From an uncultured Acidimicrobiales bacterium (GTDB lineage Bacteria > Actinomycetota > Acidimicrobiia > Acidimicrobiales > SHLQ01): a stretch of DNA of 33,777 nt. The notes below the pieces were generated by a model. The model had not been told where the DNA came from. It made no database searches and saw nothing but the letters and a program-made list of their open reading frames with translations. Of this stretch, positions 26,339 to 33,510 are shown one piece after another (the stretch's first letter is position 1; every line of letters starts with the position of its first letter). The position numbers were made by a program, and so were the translations under genes. The stretch lies in contig CALHXU010000246.1 in the NCBI GenBank assembly GCA_938040365.1, positions 1 through 33,777 on the forward strand, given 5' to 3'.

Positions 26339-26580
26339 CGAGCGGATCCGCAGCGGAGCGCCTAACGGCATTGCGCCCAGGGCCCGAGCGGCCCGTCGCC
26401 GGAGGCGCCCGGAGCGGGAGAAATAGAGTAGGAGCGTGCCGATAAAATCAGGCGCGGAGCGCCTATCGGCAGAGCCCCCAGGGCCCGAGCGGCCCGTCGC
26501 CGGAGGCGACCGGAGCGGGAAAGAGAGAGTAGGAGCGTGCCGATAACATCAGGCGCGGAGCGCCTATCGGCACACTCCTA
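26331..26580. repeat. 101-bp tandem repeat array between convergent genes
   Basis: Two full units (26354-26454 and 26455-26555) and a partial third (from 26556) share exact 101-bp spacing, for example CGGAGCG recurs at 26354, 26455 and 26556. A shorter related piece (GCCTAACG, then palindrome GCGGATCCGC) starts at the desaturase stop codon. Each unit holds nested hairpins with a GGA loop: GTCGCC-GGA-GGCGAC (perfect in the second unit) and GGCGC-GGA-GCGCC. The array fills the whole space between two convergent genes and overlaps both stop codons. It is not a CRISPR array: there are no unique spacers and the repeat is too long. Confidence 0.9.
26530..26580. terminator. Long stem-loop at the end of the repeat array, bidirectional terminator candidate
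   Basis: TAGGAGCGTGCCGATA (26530-26545) pairs with 26565-26580 over 16 positions with one G-A difference (G-U in one strand), enclosing a second hairpin GGCGC-GGA-GCGCC (26552-26564). The outer right arm contains the stop codon of the minus-strand gene (26578-26580). A shorter version recurs 101 bp to the left. Confidence 0.6.
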
Positions 26581-27015
26581 CTCGCGTTCGATTGTGACTG
26601 GTTCACCCAGTTCGACGGTGACCTCGTCGGCCGGCGGCGCAACGGGTTGACTATCTGTATCGACCGTCTCAGCTGCAGGTGGGTTTACCTCAGCAGGACC
26701 TGACGTCTCGTTGCGCACCCCTGCGACCATGAGGACGACAAAGACTGCGACCAGCAAGCCAATCACGACCCCCGCAGTCATCTCGGGGCCAAACCATTGA
26801 GCTAACCGCTCACGAAGACTTGGCTGGTGTGGATTCTGACGGAGAACATCGAGTTCTTCGTAGGTCTCCTCGGAGTACTGGCGACCAAAAAGCAGACTCA
26901 GACCAGAGCCGATCTCTAACTCGGCAGCTTCTTCCTCGCTTGGGATGATGTGAAGATCGGGCTCGACGCTCAGATCGTCGGAAGCAATGCGTTGCTCACC
27001 GCTGTTGGGATTCAT
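26578..27015 (-). CDS. Single-span membrane protein with LLFGRQ motif
   Basis: 145 aa from the ATG at 27015, which has AAGGAG about 10 nt ahead. The cytosolic N-terminal half is acidic and carries SLLFGRQYSEETYEELDVL (40-58); one membrane span follows at about 80-100 (AGVVIGLLVAVFVVLMVAGV), then a short Pro/Thr/Glu-rich outer tail ending ERE. No known domain is recognised. The LLFGRQ peptide is shared with the coiled-coil protein encoded just upstream on the same strand, followed in both by E-T and spaced Leu. It is probably a membrane partner of the signalling cluster; function unknown. Confidence 0.75.
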   Translation of the reverse strand: MNPNSGEQRIASDDLSVEPDLHIIPSEEEAAELEIGSGLSLLFGRQYSEETYEELDVLRQNPHQPSLRERLAQWFGPEMTAGVVIGLLVAVFVVLMVAGVRNETSGPAEVNPPAAETVDTDSQPVAPPADEVTVELGEPVTIERE

Positions 27016-27154
27016 GATGCCGGGTCTCCTTTCCTTCAACCAAATCGCTACCCCGCTTGTACCAATCGTCGGTTCTCGCCATTTCGTGAGTCCCTATGAC
27101 CAATCGAAATGAAATTCGCTACAGCGAGATGACGCTCTGACCGGCGTCAACGTC

Positions 27155-27682
27155 TTACTGATCACCGGTTGAGATGGCCGCAGCAGCTTGGGTAAGCGCG
27201 TTGGCAAGGACGTGTCGTTCTACGTTCTGTTCGCGAAGATCGATATCGACCTTCTCAATGCGCTCGCCGAGTTCTCCGCGAGCCTTGAGAAGTTGCTTGC
27301 GGAACTCGTCAGAACGCCGGTCAATACTTGCGCGAAGGTCGATCTGCACATCGCTCATCGTCTGCGCCTGTTGATCGAGGCGGTCCTCGAGGCCAGAGTC
27401 GCCAGCGAGCCGTGCATCGACTTCAGCATTGAGGCTCGCATCGAGATCGGATAAACGAGCGTCAAGATCGGCCAACCGAGTGTCGACTCGCTGCGCCAGT
27501 TCACCGATCGCGGCCATAACGTCGCGTTCCAGCTTGGTCAGCCGGTCGAGGGTTTCCTTTGCCTGCCGCCCAAACAGCAGATCGCGAATCTGACCGAGTT
27601 CGCCGTCGACCGCGTCTCCCGAAGCGGTTCCGGGAAGGTTGATCTCGACCTCTTTATTCTTCGCGCTAGTTTTCTCAGCCAT
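27155..27682 (-). CDS. Coiled-coil protein with LLFGRQ motif
   Basis: 175 aa. The ATG at 27682 follows GGAG by 8 nt; upstream ATGs in frame lack this. Residues 1-28 are polar. Then comes IRDLLFGRQAKETLDRLTKLE (32-52), and from about 45 to 155 a nearly continuous coiled coil with repeating R-L-A-D-L-D-A-R-L heptads (a segment DTRLADLDARLSDLDASLNA). There is no signal peptide or membrane span, so it is likely cytosolic and elongated, and may dimerise. I recall similar N-terminal peptides at the head of short coiled-coil proteins in other bacteria that sit near small GTPase genes, but no function is established. It is divergent from the histidine kinase. Confidence 0.75.
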   Translation of the reverse strand: MAEKTSAKNKEVEINLPGTASGDAVDGELGQIRDLLFGRQAKETLDRLTKLERDVMAAIGELAQRVDTRLADLDARLSDLDASLNAEVDARLAGDSGLEDRLDQQAQTMSDVQIDLRASIDRRSDEFRKQLLKARGELGERIEKVDIDLREQNVERHVLANALTQAAAAISTGDQ

Positions 27683-27742
27683 CTGAGGATGCTCCATCGT
27701 CGTGTGGGCCGAATGACCCATTCTGGTAATTTGATCGGCGCC

Positions 27743-27755
27743 ACGATCAGATCGT
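27743..27755. promoter_or_regulatory. Palindrome in the divergent intergenic region
   Basis: ACGATC-A-GATCGT is a perfect inverted repeat with 6-bp arms, placed between the divergent coiled-coil and histidine kinase genes (27683-27840). It could be an operator for the response regulator of this cluster or another DNA-binding protein. Confidence 0.35.
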
Positions 27756-27840
27756 TAAGGCATTCAGACAAAAATTGGTGACACTCGTCGAGACCACAGA
27801 CTTTTGCTGAACTTGTTGCTCGAATCGCCGAAAGGTCTCT

Positions 27841-28971
27841 ATGGCCGCACACTCCATGCTTCGCCACCTCGTAGAACTCGCAAAGAGCGCTACCGGTGCA
27901 GATTCAGCTGAACTCGTTATCCTCGGCGAGCCCGAGTTTCGAGTACTCGCAGGCGATCTTTCGATTGGTGGGAGCGAACGTTGGTCTGAACAGGTCCAGG
28001 TTGGATGTACCACCGAACAACTCGAGGATCTCGTCGACGATTTCCACAGTGTGATGAGCGTGCCAATTACAGGCCCTTCGGCAGAACCCGGGTGGCTCGC
28101 CGTTGCCCACACCGAACCAGGTGGACTATCTGAAACGTCGACCGACAGCCTCGACCGCGTAGCGACGCTGATCGAGGAGCGGCTCGACCGAACCGTCGAA
28201 CGAATACGGCTCGACCAACTGGGCTCGGTACTACGCGCAAACCAAGAAGACCTAAAGGTCGCCCGCGATCAACTCGCTGCCTCGAACACCGACCTCGAAC
28301 AGTTCGCGTACATCGCAGCACACGAGCTTGTTTCGCCGCTGCGATCGGTTGCAATTTATGCCGAAGTCCTCGAGAGCCTGGTCCCAAATGACGGTTCGGG
28401 TGCCAGCGACCGCGCACGCGAATGCGCAGACGCAATCCGCTCTGGCGTGACCACCATGAACCAGCAGGTCCAATATCTCCTCGAATTCTCACGGGCCGAA
28501 CAAACTGCGACAAAACTCGAGACGGTCGACCTCGCAAATGTCGTGAGCTCAGCGCTCGAGACGTTGGCCGAATCGCTTCGAGAGGTCGATGCAACGGTGA
28601 GCGTCGGTGAAATGCCGAAGGTGCAGGGACGTGAGGTCCCGCTGCAGAGCGTGTTTGCGAACCTCATTCGCAACGCCGTGAACTATCGACATCCCGACCG
28701 ACGCCTCGAACTCCAGATTTCGTCTGAAGCGTCAAACGGCAGCTACCGAATCCTCGTCACCGACAATGGTCTCGGCATCGACAGCGCCGACCACTCTCGA
28801 GTGTTTCAACTCTTCGAACGCGCCTCGACAGATTCGCCGGGTACCGGCATTGGCCTGGCCCTCAGCCGTCGCATCGTCGAGGCCTACGGTGGCGAGATCG
28901 GCGTCGATGACTCGTCGGAACGCGGCTCGGTCTTCTGGTTGGAACTGCCGCAAGCAAAAGCTGCGGCCTGA
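27841..28971 (+). CDS. Soluble sensor histidine kinase
   Basis: 376 aa. GAAAGG lies 6 nt ahead of the ATG. No membrane span is visible, so it is cytosolic. Residues about 5-120 look like a GAF-type sensor domain; 121-155 form a linking helix; the dimerisation/phosphorylation helix has FAYIAAHELVSPLRSV with His161 as phospho-acceptor. The ATPase domain has the N box NLIRNAVNYR, G1 TDNGLGID, F box RVFQLFERAS and G2 GTGIGLALSRRIVEAYGG. The H-box reads HEL, as in the phytochrome-like HisKA group. It converges on the GTPase gene with one base between stop codons. Its probable partner is the LuxR-type regulator 1.4 kb away on the other strand, inferred from position. Confidence 0.92.
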   Translation: MAAHSMLRHLVELAKSATGADSAELVILGEPEFRVLAGDLSIGGSERWSEQVQVGCTTEQLEDLVDDFHSVMSVPITGPSAEPGWLAVAHTEPGGLSETSTDSLDRVATLIEERLDRTVERIRLDQLGSVLRANQEDLKVARDQLAASNTDLEQFAYIAAHELVSPLRSVAIYAEVLESLVPNDGSGASDRARECADAIRSGVTTMNQQVQYLLEFSRAEQTATKLETVDLANVVSSALETLAESLREVDATVSVGEMPKVQGREVPLQSVFANLIRNAVNYRHPDRRLELQISSEASNGSYRILVTDNGLGIDSADHSRVFQLFERASTDSPGTGIGLALSRRIVEAYGGEIGVDDSSERGSVFWLELPQAKAAA

Positions 28972-28972
28972 G

Positions 28973-29479
28973 CTATCCCAGCGAGCTCGCAATACCGAAG
29001 AACATCGCTTCGACACCATCGCCGGTCTTTGCCGAGGTGTCAAACATATCCTTGCCGCCCACCGCGTCCTTAAGGCCATCGGCATCGTAGTCGAGGTCGG
29101 ACTTGTTGGCGACGTACACGATGTTGGCGTTGGGCGACGCTTGACTCAGTCGTTCTCCCAACCCCAGGGCGACCGGAACGGTTTCGAGCCGGGTTCGATC
29201 GAACACGACGATACCTGCGGCTGCACCACTCAAATAATTGGGCGGAACATCGAGGCCATCGGTCTCGCCGTGCATGTCCCAGATGAGCAGGGACACCTCA
29301 TTGCCGTCAACATCGACCGATTTCCGATCGACCTTCACTCCCAAGGTTGACTTGTGGGTCTCAGAGAAGACGCTATGGACGAAGCGCTGCACCAAACTTG
29401 TCTTGCCGACGCCAGGCGCACCAACGAGCACAACTTTCGCTCGCCGGATTCCTGAACCAGCCGATTTCAGAATTGCCAC
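28973..29479 (-). CDS. Ras/Rab-like small GTPase
   Basis: 168 aa, a single G domain acting as a nucleotide-dependent switch. G1 is GAPGVGKTS (20-28), G2 Thr45 in STLGV, G3 DMHGE (68-72), G4 NKSD (125-128) and G5 SAK (149-151). At the position equivalent to Ras Gln61 it has Glu, and at Ras Gly12 it has Pro. It lacks a C-terminal Cys for lipidation. The GTG start has GGGGCAG ahead of it. It lies 24 bp downstream of the LRSVLLR protein gene on the same strand and shares a transcript with it and the response regulator. No GAP, GEF or roadblock partner is encoded in the window, which sets it apart from the Streptomyces conservon GTPase CvnD. Confidence 0.92.
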   Translation of the reverse strand: MAILKSAGSGIRRAKVVLVGAPGVGKTSLVQRFVHSVFSETHKSTLGVKVDRKSVDVDGNEVSLLIWDMHGETDGLDVPPNYLSGAAAGIVVFDRTRLETVPVALGLGERLSQASPNANIVYVANKSDLDYDADGLKDAVGGKDMFDTSAKTGDGVEAMFFGIASSLG

Positions 29480-29503
29480 GCTGCCCCATTCGACAAACCT
29501 TGT

Positions 29504-30403
29504 TTAACTAAGAGCGAGGACTCCGAGGAGAATCACCGCAGCAGTCACCATAACAAGCAGAGCGACCATCACCAGCGACCGCGTGCTCGACATTGCCTTG
29601 GACTTCGCAGCATTTGCATGAAGCTCGCCCAAAACATCGGCCACGCCCACGAATGGATCGAGGCTGCCATCGAACAGAGCAAGCTCACTTGCGTACCGTC
29701 CGTGGATTCCTTCGAGGGCCTCGGCAGCGCCGTTCCGGTAGTCCTGGCTTGGAATGCCTCGGACAACCGACGCGAGAATTGCGTTGGGCCCGCTTTCTAC
29801 AAGGACGGAAAGGTCGCCGACGCGGAGATCCGACAGACCATCGTTTTCGTCGGCGGTGAATGCTTCTTGGACGAACGTCTTGAGCGCATCGATCATGCCC
29901 GATACAACATCGGCGTCCTCGAGTGCTTCTTCATTTGTCGCAGTAGACGCGAGCAACAGGCCGGTCGAGCGTTCGATCAGCAAGACCTGTTCAACCACGA
30001 ATGGTTGGCCGGCCTTGTTCTTATCAAGGGTGAACAGATCAGCGATCATCTTTCGAATCGCTGGCCCGAGTACCGGGTAGATCGCCTCGGCGAGCATCGT
30101 GTCTTCGGTCCGCGCCGAGGAGAAGATAGCGTGTTCAACTTCGGGACGGAGCGCAAGGCCAAGTTCTCCGGCCTCCCGCTTCGACGACGTGATCGCATCG
30201 ACCAAGACCTCGTCCACCACTTCTTTTCTCTCAGCGATGTCATACAAGGTCTGCTCGAGCCGGTGAACCCTCGCTACGAGCTCGTCGATCTGGCGACGTT
30301 GAGCTTCGACCACTTCACGATCGCTGCGCAGCAGCACCGAACGCAATTCATCAAGCTGGTGCGACTCGTTTGCGTCGAGGTCGATGAGCTGTGTGTTCTC
30401 CAT
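29504..30403 (-). CDS. Tail-anchored coiled-coil protein with LRSVLLR motif
   Basis: 299 aa from the ATG at 30403, which has AAGGTGAG about 10 nt upstream. The N-terminus carries LDELRSVLLRSDREVVEAQ (17-35) and a coiled coil to about residue 60. A conserved-looking central domain follows: YPVLGPAIRKMIADLF (109-124), VEQVLLIERSTGLLLAS (137-153), VVSGMIDALKTFVQEAF (166-182), LRVGDLSVLVESGPNAILA (193-211). One membrane span closes the protein (about 276-297). From memory, the same order of segments occurs in the N-terminal cytosolic part of some OmpA-family proteins of proteobacteria and cyanobacteria, which here is cut off from any OmpA domain. Function unknown; likely a membrane-tethered partner of the small GTPase. 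Confidence 0.8.
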   Translation of the reverse strand: MENTQLIDLDANESHQLDELRSVLLRSDREVVEAQRRQIDELVARVHRLEQTLYDIAERKEVVDEVLVDAITSSKREAGELGLALRPEVEHAIFSSARTEDTMLAEAIYPVLGPAIRKMIADLFTLDKNKAGQPFVVEQVLLIERSTGLLLASTATNEEALEDADVVSGMIDALKTFVQEAFTADENDGLSDLRVGDLSVLVESGPNAILASVVRGIPSQDYRNGAAEALEGIHGRYASELALFDGSLDPFVGVADVLGELHANAAKSKAMSSTRSLVMVALLVMVTAAVILLGVLALS

Positions 30404-30420
30404 GTGAGCACTCACCTTCT

Positions 30421-31044
30421 TCAGGTTGGAGGTACGAGGACGCCAGCGCGGGTCGCTTTCGCGATCGCCTCGCCCAGGGATCCCACGTTGAGTTTTCGGT
30501 AGATTGCTTTGATTCGGCCACGGACGGTATGGACCGAAAGAAACAGCGATTCAGAGATTTCGTTCGGGGTGGCGCCCGTGTTGAGCGCCTCGAGAACCTC
30601 GAGCTCGGCTGAGGTCAGTCCGAACTGCTCTTCTGACTTCTGTGGGCACTCTGCAGACGATGCGTTACCCGAGATCGTCGAACGCATTCTGGTCACGATG
30701 TCCTGGATGGATTCATCCTTCGAAATGGCGCTCACACCGACGAGCGAGTCGACTTCGCGTTGTACCTGAGGTGCAAGGAATCCGGTCAGCACAATGATCG
30801 GCGCAGTGAAGCCGTCCGCCCGAAGTTCCTCTGCGACCTTCGTGCCGGTACGCCCGTCGGGCAACCGGTAGTCGGTGATCACAAGATCGGGACTTTGGGT
30901 TGTGCATAGGTCAATTCCTTCTCCGGCGTTGCTCGCTCGACCAACCAACTTGAGGTCATCGGTAAGTGAAAGCGCAAGCCCAAACGCGTCGACAAACGAG
31001 ACCTGATCATCGATCATTACAACTCTGTCTGGTTTTACCTGCAT
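30421..31044 (-). CDS. Response regulator, NarL/FixJ (LuxR) type
   Basis: 207 aa. The receiver domain has acidic pocket Asp12-Asp13, phospho-acceptor Asp58 in DLVITDYRLPDG, Thr87 and Lys109 (AISKDES); the LuxR-type helix-turn-helix (LTSAELEVLEALNTGATPNE on to VHTVRGRIKAIYRKLNV) occupies about 143-205. It is a complete DNA-binding regulator. GAGGA lies 6 nt ahead of the ATG. It is followed 17 bp later by the LRSVLLR protein gene and then the GTPase gene, so it leads a three-gene operon, with the Ser/Thr kinase 93 bp upstream on the same strand. The nearby histidine kinase on the other strand is the likely phosphodonor (inference). Confidence 0.93.
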   Translation of the reverse strand: MQVKPDRVVMIDDQVSFVDAFGLALSLTDDLKLVGRASNAGEGIDLCTTQSPDLVITDYRLPDGRTGTKVAEELRADGFTAPIIVLTGFLAPQVQREVDSLVGVSAISKDESIQDIVTRMRSTISGNASSAECPQKSEEQFGLTSAELEVLEALNTGATPNEISESLFLSVHTVRGRIKAIYRKLNVGSLGEAIAKATRAGVLVPPT

Positions 31045-31137: not shown

Positions 31138-33510
31138 CTAGTTGGCCGTCGTGACGGTGAGGCTCTGGGTCGCCGTGTTGCCGTTGCCCTGACCCTGCCC
31201 GTCAGCCTCAACGGTCACCGTGATGACATAGGTAGTACCCGGGGTAAGCGCGGGAGTCCAAAAGCCCGGAATCGCAAGATGTCGCGTCGTGCAACCGTCG
31301 GCCTGTCCAGCATTTGAACCAACGAACTCACCGGCGGCCGTACGAATTACAAACGATCCGTTCGCGCAGACGTTTGACTCGTAGTTCACTTGAAATCGGG
31401 TCGACTCGGTTGAGACGAGGCGCAGGTTCGAAAGGACCACTTGCTCGTCGGCAGCTTCTGGCTGCCCGCCCGGAGTTCGGATCGCAACTGCAGTCGACGA
31501 AACCGATGGGTTTGCGTTCAGGGTTACCTGAACCGAATAGTCAGTTCCGGGCTCTAACCCACCGACCGTTACGCCTTCGCTCACTCCGCCGAACGCGCTG
31601 CCACTTTGACTGCGGACCACAACCCCACCAGAGCTCACCGTAGCGGTGTAGGTCGTCGTCTCGGTCGACGTAAAGCGAAACGACACGCTCGTCTCGTCAA
31701 TGTCGCCAATGTCGATTCGTTCGGCGAACTGCACAGGTTCCACGACCACCGCGGCTGTAGTCGTAGTCGTTGGTGCAGTGGTCGTCGTAGTGGTGGTGGT
31801 GGTGGTCGTCGTTGGAGCGGCCGTTGTGGTGGTCGTTGTTGGCGCCGCCGTCGTGGTTGGTGCAAACGTTGGATTTACGAACACCAACGGCGGGGCAGTC
31901 ACCGGCGACTCACTGGTCGTCGGAGCGACGGGCGCGAGCGGCGGGACGACCACAGCGCCGGTAGTGGTCGGAGCGTCGATTTGTCCGGCATTGTTCGCTC
32001 CGTCACCAGGCACGGGTCGAGTCGTAGTGTCGACGTCTGTCTCAGGTAGCGACGTTTCGGGGAGTGCCGTTGTTTCAGCGAGCACCTCGACGACGACCGG
32101 ACGGTCTTCGGAAACAGCGACTCCTTCGGTCTGCGTGCTGGCAACATCTGCCACCACGTCGAGACTTTGTTCCTGATTCGCATTGGTGTCTGAAACCACC
32201 GGTGTCAACTCAGAGACCTCCGAACCGTCGCCAATGGTAGATCCACCGCCACTCGCTGCCGGAAGCGTTTCGGCCGGTTGGACGCTATTCAGCTCAGCTC
32301 GATTCTCGGCATCGACGTCGATTGTTGAGATTCGACCGTCCGCCAGCGAGTCGAGATCAGCGCTGCCGGCGGTTGTCGAGGCAAACGCATCGGTGCCGTT
32401 CCAAAGCGTCGCCGTGATCGCTCCGAGAATTCCAACCACGACAAAGACAATGCCAGCAACAACCCACAGCGCGACCAGTCGATCGTCTTCTTCCTCGTCC
32501 TCGGGCTGGCGGACCGCAACATTGACCATCGGGTCATCGACGGGAAAGAGGGCTCCACTTGCACTCTTGATTTCGGCGAGTTCGACAACCGGCAAAGAAT
32601 CAACATCTGCGAAAATCGGGACCTCACCGAAGAAGTTTCGCCCTTCCAACACCGGTTCGGAGTCACTCACTCGAAAACCAAGAACCGGATCGAACGCGGC
32701 GATCTCGTCATCATGGAGCAGTTCACGAATTTCTTCGCAGAACTCGTCCGCAGATTCAGGCCGATGTTCGATCGTCTTTGACAGCGTGCGAGAAACGAGA
32801 TCGACCACAGCTGGCGGCGCCCGATCGATAAGCAGGTCGGTAGACACATCCTCGTTGAGGACCGTAACGAACATCGCTCCCGGAGACATCCCCTCTTCGA
32901 GGACGAACGGGGCTTGTCCAGCTAGGAGGGCGAAGAGCAAGCCGCCCAACCCGTACACATCGGTTTGCTCGGATGGTTTTGCCCCGTTGAGACGCTCGGG
33001 AGGGGTATAAGCCGGCGTCATCATCTGGGCGGACATCGATGCCGTGGTGCCCATCGCTTCAGAAATGCCGAAGTCGGCGAGAAACGGCTCACCGGTGGCA
33101 TCGAGGAGCACATTCGCCGGCTTGATATCGAGGTGGAGAATCCGCTTTTCATGGGCTTGGGCCACCGCTGCAGCGACCTTCGCAGCGAGCTCGAGTGCTT
33201 CGCGCCACGGCACCGGCCCCTCGGTGATCCGATGCTGAAGGGAGCCACCGTCGAAGAGTGGCATCACGATAAAGGGGTCACCAGCAGGGGTAATTCCCGA
33301 ATCGAGAACGGGAGCAACATGGTCGAGAGAATCGAGTGTCGACATGGCCATGCGCTCTCGCTCGAATCGTCGAGCTACTGCGTCGTCGCCACCACCTCGC
33401 AACACCTTCACGGCGACCACGTCGCCAGTCTCAGATCGAGTTGCCTGATACACGTGCGCATTGCCGCCTGCGCCTACGAGTGAAAAGCCCTCATAGCTCG
33501 GAATGTCCAA
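31138..33510 (-). CDS. Membrane Ser/Thr protein kinase with fibronectin-type extracellular domains
   Basis: 790 aa. The kinase domain spans residues 1-270: glycine loop VGAGGNAHV, VAVKVL with Lys35, HLDIKPANVLL with catalytic Asp128, DFG 146-148 and PPE 170-172. HLD in place of HRD makes it a non-RD kinase, so activation-loop phosphorylation may not be required. After an acidic juxtamembrane stretch comes one span (VALWVVAGIVFVVVGILGAI, about 345-365), a Thr/Val/Ser-rich region, a poly-Thr/Ala/Pro spacer, and two fibronectin-III-like modules at the C-terminus outside the cell. It starts at a TTG because a stop codon lies close upstream in frame and no ATG or GTG intervenes. This layout fits PknB-like sensors that read a cell-wall or surface cue. 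Confidence 0.92.
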   Translation of the reverse strand: MDIPSYEGFSLVGAGGNAHVYQATRSETGDVVAVKVLRGGGDDAVARRFERERMAMSTLDSLDHVAPVLDSGITPAGDPFIVMPLFDGGSLQHRITEGPVPWREALELAAKVAAAVAQAHEKRILHLDIKPANVLLDATGEPFLADFGISEAMGTTASMSAQMMTPAYTPPERLNGAKPSEQTDVYGLGGLLFALLAGQAPFVLEEGMSPGAMFVTVLNEDVSTDLLIDRAPPAVVDLVSRTLSKTIEHRPESADEFCEEIRELLHDDEIAAFDPVLGFRVSDSEPVLEGRNFFGEVPIFADVDSLPVVELAEIKSASGALFPVDDPMVNVAVRQPEDEEEDDRLVALWVVAGIVFVVVGILGAITATLWNGTDAFASTTAGSADLDSLADGRISTIDVDAENRAELNSVQPAETLPAASGGGSTIGDGSEVSELTPVVSDTNANQEQSLDVVADVASTQTEGVAVSEDRPVVVEVLAETTALPETSLPETDVDTTTRPVPGDGANNAGQIDAPTTTGAVVVPPLAPVAPTTSESPVTAPPLVFVNPTFAPTTTAAPTTTTTTAAPTTTTTTTTTTTTAPTTTTTAAVVVEPVQFAERIDIGDIDETSVSFRFTSTETTTYTATVSSGGVVVRSQSGSAFGGVSEGVTVGGLEPGTDYSVQVTLNANPSVSSTAVAIRTPGGQPEAADEQVVLSNLRLVSTESTRFQVNYESNVCANGSFVIRTAAGEFVGSNAGQADGCTTRHLAIPGFWTPALTPGTTYVITVTVEADGQGQGNGNTATQSLTVTTAN

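Follow-up and report, generated by a model that had tools for sequence, protein, structure and literature searches.

Within the 33,777-nucleotide stretch of DNA analysed here, from an uncultured Acidimicrobiales bacterium (contig CALHXU010000246.1; the window hereafter), a cluster of genes raises the question of whether a short peptide, LLFGRQ or LRSVLLR, is shared by several of the encoded proteins and, if so, what that peptide might bind. A first-pass annotation had placed it in a single-span protein, a coiled-coil protein (the coil) and a tail-anchored protein (the tail), and had offered, as a plausible reading, a common docking peptide for one hub such as the GTPase or the kinase. The three quoted peptides are present, and the residue numbers given for them hold with internal ATG starts at window positions 27015, 27682 and 30403. 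On the minus strand lie the genes for the single-span protein (26578..27015), the 188-aa coil (27155..27721), a Ras/Rab-like small GTPase of 168 aa (28973..29479), the 303-aa tail (29504..30415) and a response regulator with a LuxR-type HTH (30421..31044; assigned by Pfam and homologue search). A histidine kinase gene on the plus strand (27841..28971) sits between the GTPase and coil genes and is convergent with the former, while a gene encoding a Ser/Thr kinase that has an FN3-like domain and a long linker rich in Thr (window 31138-33510) is located upstream of the response regulator.

Judged from sequence, the gene set appears to match the Group 1 Rup neighbourhood, which was described in 2014 with function unknown (Wuichet and Sogaard-Andersen 2014; PMC4316618). 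As set out there, the set includes a GTPase without the G3 glutamine and a coiled-coil protein, together with a membrane protein whose conserved domain was left unidentified, often accompanied by an inner-membrane helix and OmpA. The output protein, either a histidine kinase or a c-di-GMP protein, has an N-terminal region bearing an invariant glutamine; the experimental work on Rup proteins reported there is limited to transcription of one of them. The present cluster agrees with this description in its GTPase, which likewise has no G3 glutamine, in its coil, in the conserved domain of its membrane protein and in its histidine kinase. It differs in that the tail has no OmpA domain and ends in an anchor, and in the addition of a response regulator, the module being found here in an uncultured Acidimicrobiales-like genome. 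At 168 aa the GTPase is shorter than 240 aa; it matches Pfam Ras with an E value of 1.3e-23, its closest PDB structures are Rab2 and Rab5, and its G3 motif reads WDMHGE, with no catalytic Gln, the glutamine being missing also from 77 of 79 relatives. A check for the invariant glutamine of the Rup output proteins found that the best Gln column (78 percent, 40 sequences, in an alignment that is poor across subfamilies) is occupied by S in the window kinase.

The spread of the neighbourhood was examined next. The first scan, with a single-protein query on genome contigs, returned no relative. A scan of 59 relatives located the tail protein in 10 genomes, including that of the window, and at each of the nine other loci homologues of the coil, GTPase and histidine kinase were present; a response regulator homologue was found at eight, the ninth ending at a contig end. 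With the tail alignment as query against a bacterial genome collection, 116 relatives were recovered and 80 loci kept, the record labels of which include Acidimicrobiales, Gammaproteobacteria, Thiothrix, Variovorax, Planctomycetota, Gemmatimonadota, Thermoanaerobaculia and Calditrichia, among others. A GTPase homologue adjoins the tail gene in 79 of these 80 loci, the exception ending at a contig edge. Coil homologues are present in 76, with a 77th (L104) detected by a larger profile. Within its own phylum the module seems to be patchy, since the first tail profile matched only the genome of the window in a sample of 246 genomes.

With families of this size, the peptide could be assessed across relatives. 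In the window, the coil signature LGQIRDLLFG (residues 42-51; 27569..27598, minus strand) lies at the N-terminal end of a long helix, and the tail signature LDELRSVLLR (residues 21-30; 30326..30355, minus strand) carries R in place of the G typical of the family. Alignments built without any motif filter read nLDkIReILFGeQmRdyEkR for the coil and dLeqLRdLLlGaEkqaLdsL for the tail, giving N-terminal signatures of [IV]RxILFGxQ and LRxLL(L/F)G, respectively, and a joint signature of L-x-x-(I/L)-R-x-(I/L)-L-(F/L)-G-x-(Q/E). Conservation of the coil columns reaches 97 percent for L, 89 for F, 98 for G and 78 for R (76 sequences), and that of the tail columns 91 percent for L, 72 for R and 71 for G (80 sequences). 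Indeed, 75 of the 76 coils match the pattern [LIVM][RKQ]x[LIVM][LIVMF][LFIV]G, the remaining one being a truncated fragment. The tail copy is looser: 55 of 80 match the complete pattern and 78 of 80 match it without its last two positions, with the G present in 57. Variants of the peptide follow single clades.

Direct comparison of the tail and coil profiles yielded a score of 26.0, a value reached by none of 300 column shuffles (maximum 14.6), and profile windows outside the peptide scored no higher than 12.8; a repeat with cleaned alignments gave 26.6. The whole-length profiles align over the first 28 columns only, indicating that the likeness is confined to the peptide. In the window, the coil peptide fits its profile better than all of 1000 shuffles. 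The resemblance between tail and coil within the window is by itself weak, because the tail peptide alone, with R for G, is equalled against the coil profile by 142 of 1000 of its own shuffles. On these alignments, the shared peptide is a real, conserved and module-specific feature of the coil and tail proteins. The annotation had listed three carriers; for the coil and the tail the claim stands at the level of families, far above shuffled expectation, and for the single-span protein it does not.

Indeed, the LLFGRQ of the single-span protein (window 26878-26895, minus strand) is judged to lie outside the shared signature. The hexamer is identical in the single-span and coil proteins, and any hexamer in common arose in 37 of 20,000 shuffles of the pair; since some pair among six cluster proteins shared a hexamer in 299 of 3,000 shuffles, or about 10 percent, the match is unusual for these two proteins but not for the cluster as a whole. 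When the single-span protein was tried as a third member, 255 and 158 of 1000 of its own shuffles fitted the two profiles as well as it did, and neither profile found it in the source genome at E values up to 10. A homologue exists in only one of the nine related loci, and this sole clear homologue reads LSVHLDEV at the peptide position; a genus-wide search of 11 genomes added only weak, partial matches. Coincidence is most likely, because the protein fits neither profile and its clear homologue is without the peptide. The exactness of the match to the neighbouring coil, rare by chance for that pair, is what would speak for the peptide being a genuine copy of the coil signature, acquired recently; set against the poor profile fits, the missing peptide in the homologue and the one-in-ten chance for any pair, such an origin is very improbable. 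Just downstream of the single-span gene, the region at window 26346-26583 contains two 101-base direct repeats that are 88 percent alike, together with a third, incomplete copy and inverted repeats of 19 bases, possibly representing a repeated terminator or a mobile repeat.

The shared-peptide claim would also lose force if the motif were common in unrelated proteins, and profile scans of the source genome and 63 related genomes showed that the signature is not common. In the source genome, the coil profile found the coil at an E value of 7e-9, with the next match at 0.095, and the tail profile found the tail at 1.3e-4, the coil peptide ranking second at 0.68. Among 63 genomes of the Thiothrix-like order, the coil peptide profile matched 30 coils and gave one weak match (E 0.03); a thirty-first coil, missed by the peptide profile, is cut at a contig edge. 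The tail gene is present in 31 of the 63, and, compared by eye, the identical 31 carry a strong coil match. The coil profile did not reach the tail peptide in either the source genome or the 63 genomes, so that the similarity of coil to tail is visible mainly from profile to profile. Since the GTPase gene almost always adjoins that of the tail, and since the peptide is uncommon elsewhere, its placement in partners of the GTPase is supported. A tentative reading, somewhat favoured here, is that the peptide serves as an N-terminal docking helix in two proteins that are obligate partners of the Group 1 Rup (Rab/Ras-like) GTPase module.

The same co-occurrence bears on a different function, in which the two signature helices pair with one another, the N-termini of coil and tail forming a parallel helical bundle that serves as a hetero-oligomerisation element and not as a ligand of the GTPase or longin domain. 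In the Thiothrix-like order the coil and tail genes always occur together, as neighbours on a single contig in all 31 carrier genomes; both peptides begin long helices in structural models, and heptad-like hydrophobic spacing follows the signature in both proteins. Yet the near-invariant F and G of the coil are out of heptad register, and at a Planctomycetota locus (L049) a tail and a GTPase occur with no coil match in the genome bin, the tail keeping the signature-like peptide LHDLLVG, although the bin may be incomplete. On balance, pairing is considered somewhat unlikely. The L, F and G of the coil are conserved almost without variation, beyond the needs of coiled-coil packing, which counts for the docking reading, whereas the looseness of the tail copy, the R in the tail of the window itself and the failure of the coil profile to reach the tail peptide in genome scans count against it, as does the L049 locus, with its tail and GTPase but no coil match in the bin. 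A further observation counts against docking: a lone coil gene in a Calditrichia genome (L130:6656-7138), near a response-regulator gene, keeps an LIFG signature, and no tail or GTPase match was found around it (about 7 kb, within a 14 kb stretch). Two complete modules (L095 and L129) lie elsewhere in that genome.

The AF2 model of the coil is a single helix (residues 39-186) following a disordered N-terminus, with lower confidence at the signature. Sequence matches of the coil to apolipoproteins in the PDB were taken to reflect generic similarity among amphipathic helices. At its C-terminus (window about 27155-27240) the coil has a second conserved stretch, K-x-D-R-x-x-L-A-x-L-L. Comparison of the C-terminus with the RKSI helix of the tail scored 17.5, which none of 300 shuffles attained (maximum 17.3), this being the best of many windows. 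Such a second, weak resemblance, along with the adjacency of the coil and tail genes on the same strand, is what might be expected were the peptide a relic of common descent with no common function today, the coil having arisen by tandem duplication of the 5' part of the tail gene, or the tail having formed when a coil was fused to a longin domain. A relic would not, however, be kept 97-98 percent identical at the L and G positions in different phyla, and neither the 28-column extent of the whole-length alignment nor a resemblance selected from many windows is in its favour; descent of this kind is thus regarded as decidedly unlikely. The hydrophobic L-L-F/L core in both proteins could suit an amphipathic helix that contacts the membrane, but the conserved R, Q/E and G, and the constraint on strict sequence over composition, would be unlike lipid-binding helices, making this explanation highly improbable.

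As to the hub, the annotation was partly borne out, in that the peptide occurs in two partners of the GTPase, and partly not, in that the single-span protein falls away and a kinase hub is unlikely. The Ser/Thr kinase gave no phmmer match at E values up to 1 in nine related loci, and the output gene varies outside Acidimicrobiales; on these grounds a kinase is unlikely to be what the peptide binds. The GTPase is a possible hub, and either the longin-like domain described below or pairing of coil with tail is equally compatible with the data. The output histidine kinase and c-di-GMP proteins were also considered as further bearers of the peptide, their linker helix resembling it on inspection by eye (LQQVRNGLL for Thiothrix and LDQLGSVLR for the window), and profile tests gave no support. 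In these tests, for which nine downstream proteins were excluded by name together with any under 250 aa, and three sequences matching no pattern were left out, the number of shuffles out of 200 that equalled the real peptide was counted against the tail and coil profiles, in that order: 6 and 50 for the Thiothrix group, 115 and 55 for the QQxxNE group, and 45 and 6 for the Acidimicrobiales group, where three of 11 rows were out of register.

The nature of the conserved domain of the membrane protein was addressed with a structural model of the tail (mean pLDDT 83.5, pTM 0.54). The model opens with helices at residues 6-28 and 30-58, leading into a helical region, and the break at residue 29 places the signature across a kink. 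At about residues 138-274 come strands and helices in the longin order, after which an anchor-bearing helix runs to the C-terminus. The predicted elements (strands 140-148 and 154-159, helix 162-187, strands 196-199, 202-208 and 212-219, helices 224-246 and 258-302) are arranged beta-beta-alpha-beta-beta-beta-alpha-alpha, as in longin domains. Residues 140-270 superpose on Sec22b with a Z score of 14.6 and an rmsd of 2.6 (125 of 127 residues), followed by VAMP7 (Z 13.9), Ykt6 (13.0) and Mon1-Ccz1 (about 11); Fuzzy-Inturned, TRAPP and Mon1-Ccz1 subunits and adaptor sigma chains rank below the longin domains, and Foldseek matched an adaptor sigma chain at an E value of 9e-5. The assignment rests on the predicted model, since the tail of the window has no match to a longin Pfam family or to a PDB sequence; for 60 tail relatives, no longin family was found among 25 of the 52 families matched. 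The conserved domain of the tail is accordingly described as a predicted longin fold, a fold that in human cells keeps Rab-like switches on membranes. In the window this homologous domain is followed by the C-terminal anchor with no OmpA, and outside actinobacterial records most tail proteins have lengths of 460-770 aa and an OmpA domain at the end; OmpA was matched in all five long relatives scanned, three of them above the Pfam cut-off.

In its predicted fold, and in adjoining a Rab-like GTPase, the tail resembles the eukaryotic longin proteins Sec22b, VAMP7 and Ykt6, as well as Mon1-Ccz1 and TRAPP. Longin SNAREs have a C-terminal membrane anchor, which that of the tail also resembles. Unlike the eukaryotic proteins, the tail has extra N-terminal signature helices, and other phyla add OmpA after the anchor. 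A bacterial Ras-like GTPase coupled to a protein of longin- or Roadblock-related fold recalls MglA-MglB, from which the tail model differs in its strand and helix order and in the membrane anchoring of the partner; no Roadblock (MglB-like) Pfam match was found among the seven cluster proteins scanned, the GTPase being judged by the best 25 of 39 matches. The shared coil-tail peptide and the predicted longin fold of the conserved domain are new here. The available part of the 2014 paper makes no mention of a shared peptide and leaves the membrane-protein domain unidentified (PMC4316618), and a search of the open-access literature found no paper naming the peptide or a bacterial longin domain in the Rup module.

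Docking is favoured because the signature is beyond chance and confined to the module, the genes co-occur, the tail has a predicted longin fold and the GTPase is nearest to Rab2 and Rab5. The tail would then be a membrane platform for the Rup GTPase, with the shared helix a docking element for the GTPase-longin core. Held at the membrane, the tail may offer the GTPase its longin-like domain, a role that longin and Roadblock domains play for Rab, Rag and MglA GTPases. Both signature helices would bind one hydrophobic site on this core, their proposed partner; the strictly conserved coil copy might be the main ligand, and the looser tail copy a cis competitor or second contact. Whether the soluble coil rod stays at the membrane could then depend on the nucleotide state, with the two-component or c-di-GMP protein as the presumed output. 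An unlikely but more specific version has Group 1 Rup as a bacterial Rab-longin switch, in which the anchored longin protein holds its own LRxLLxG helix on the GTPase-longin core and is displaced by the same helix of the soluble coil, much as longin SNAREs alternate between closed and open states; a two-component or c-di-GMP output would thereby be coupled to the GTP state.

More broadly, many bacterial phyla encode a predicted longin protein together with a Rab-like GTPase. If the longin prediction is true, the origin of Rab-longin control would be testable in culturable bacteria; Thiothrix and Variovorax strains carry module genes. The shared peptide offers a concrete handle, in that a short synthetic helix, two proteins and one GTPase should suffice to test module assembly. 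As regards the GTPase genes, one Pyrinomonadaceae record (L075:5417-6604) contains two of the Rup-module family in tandem.
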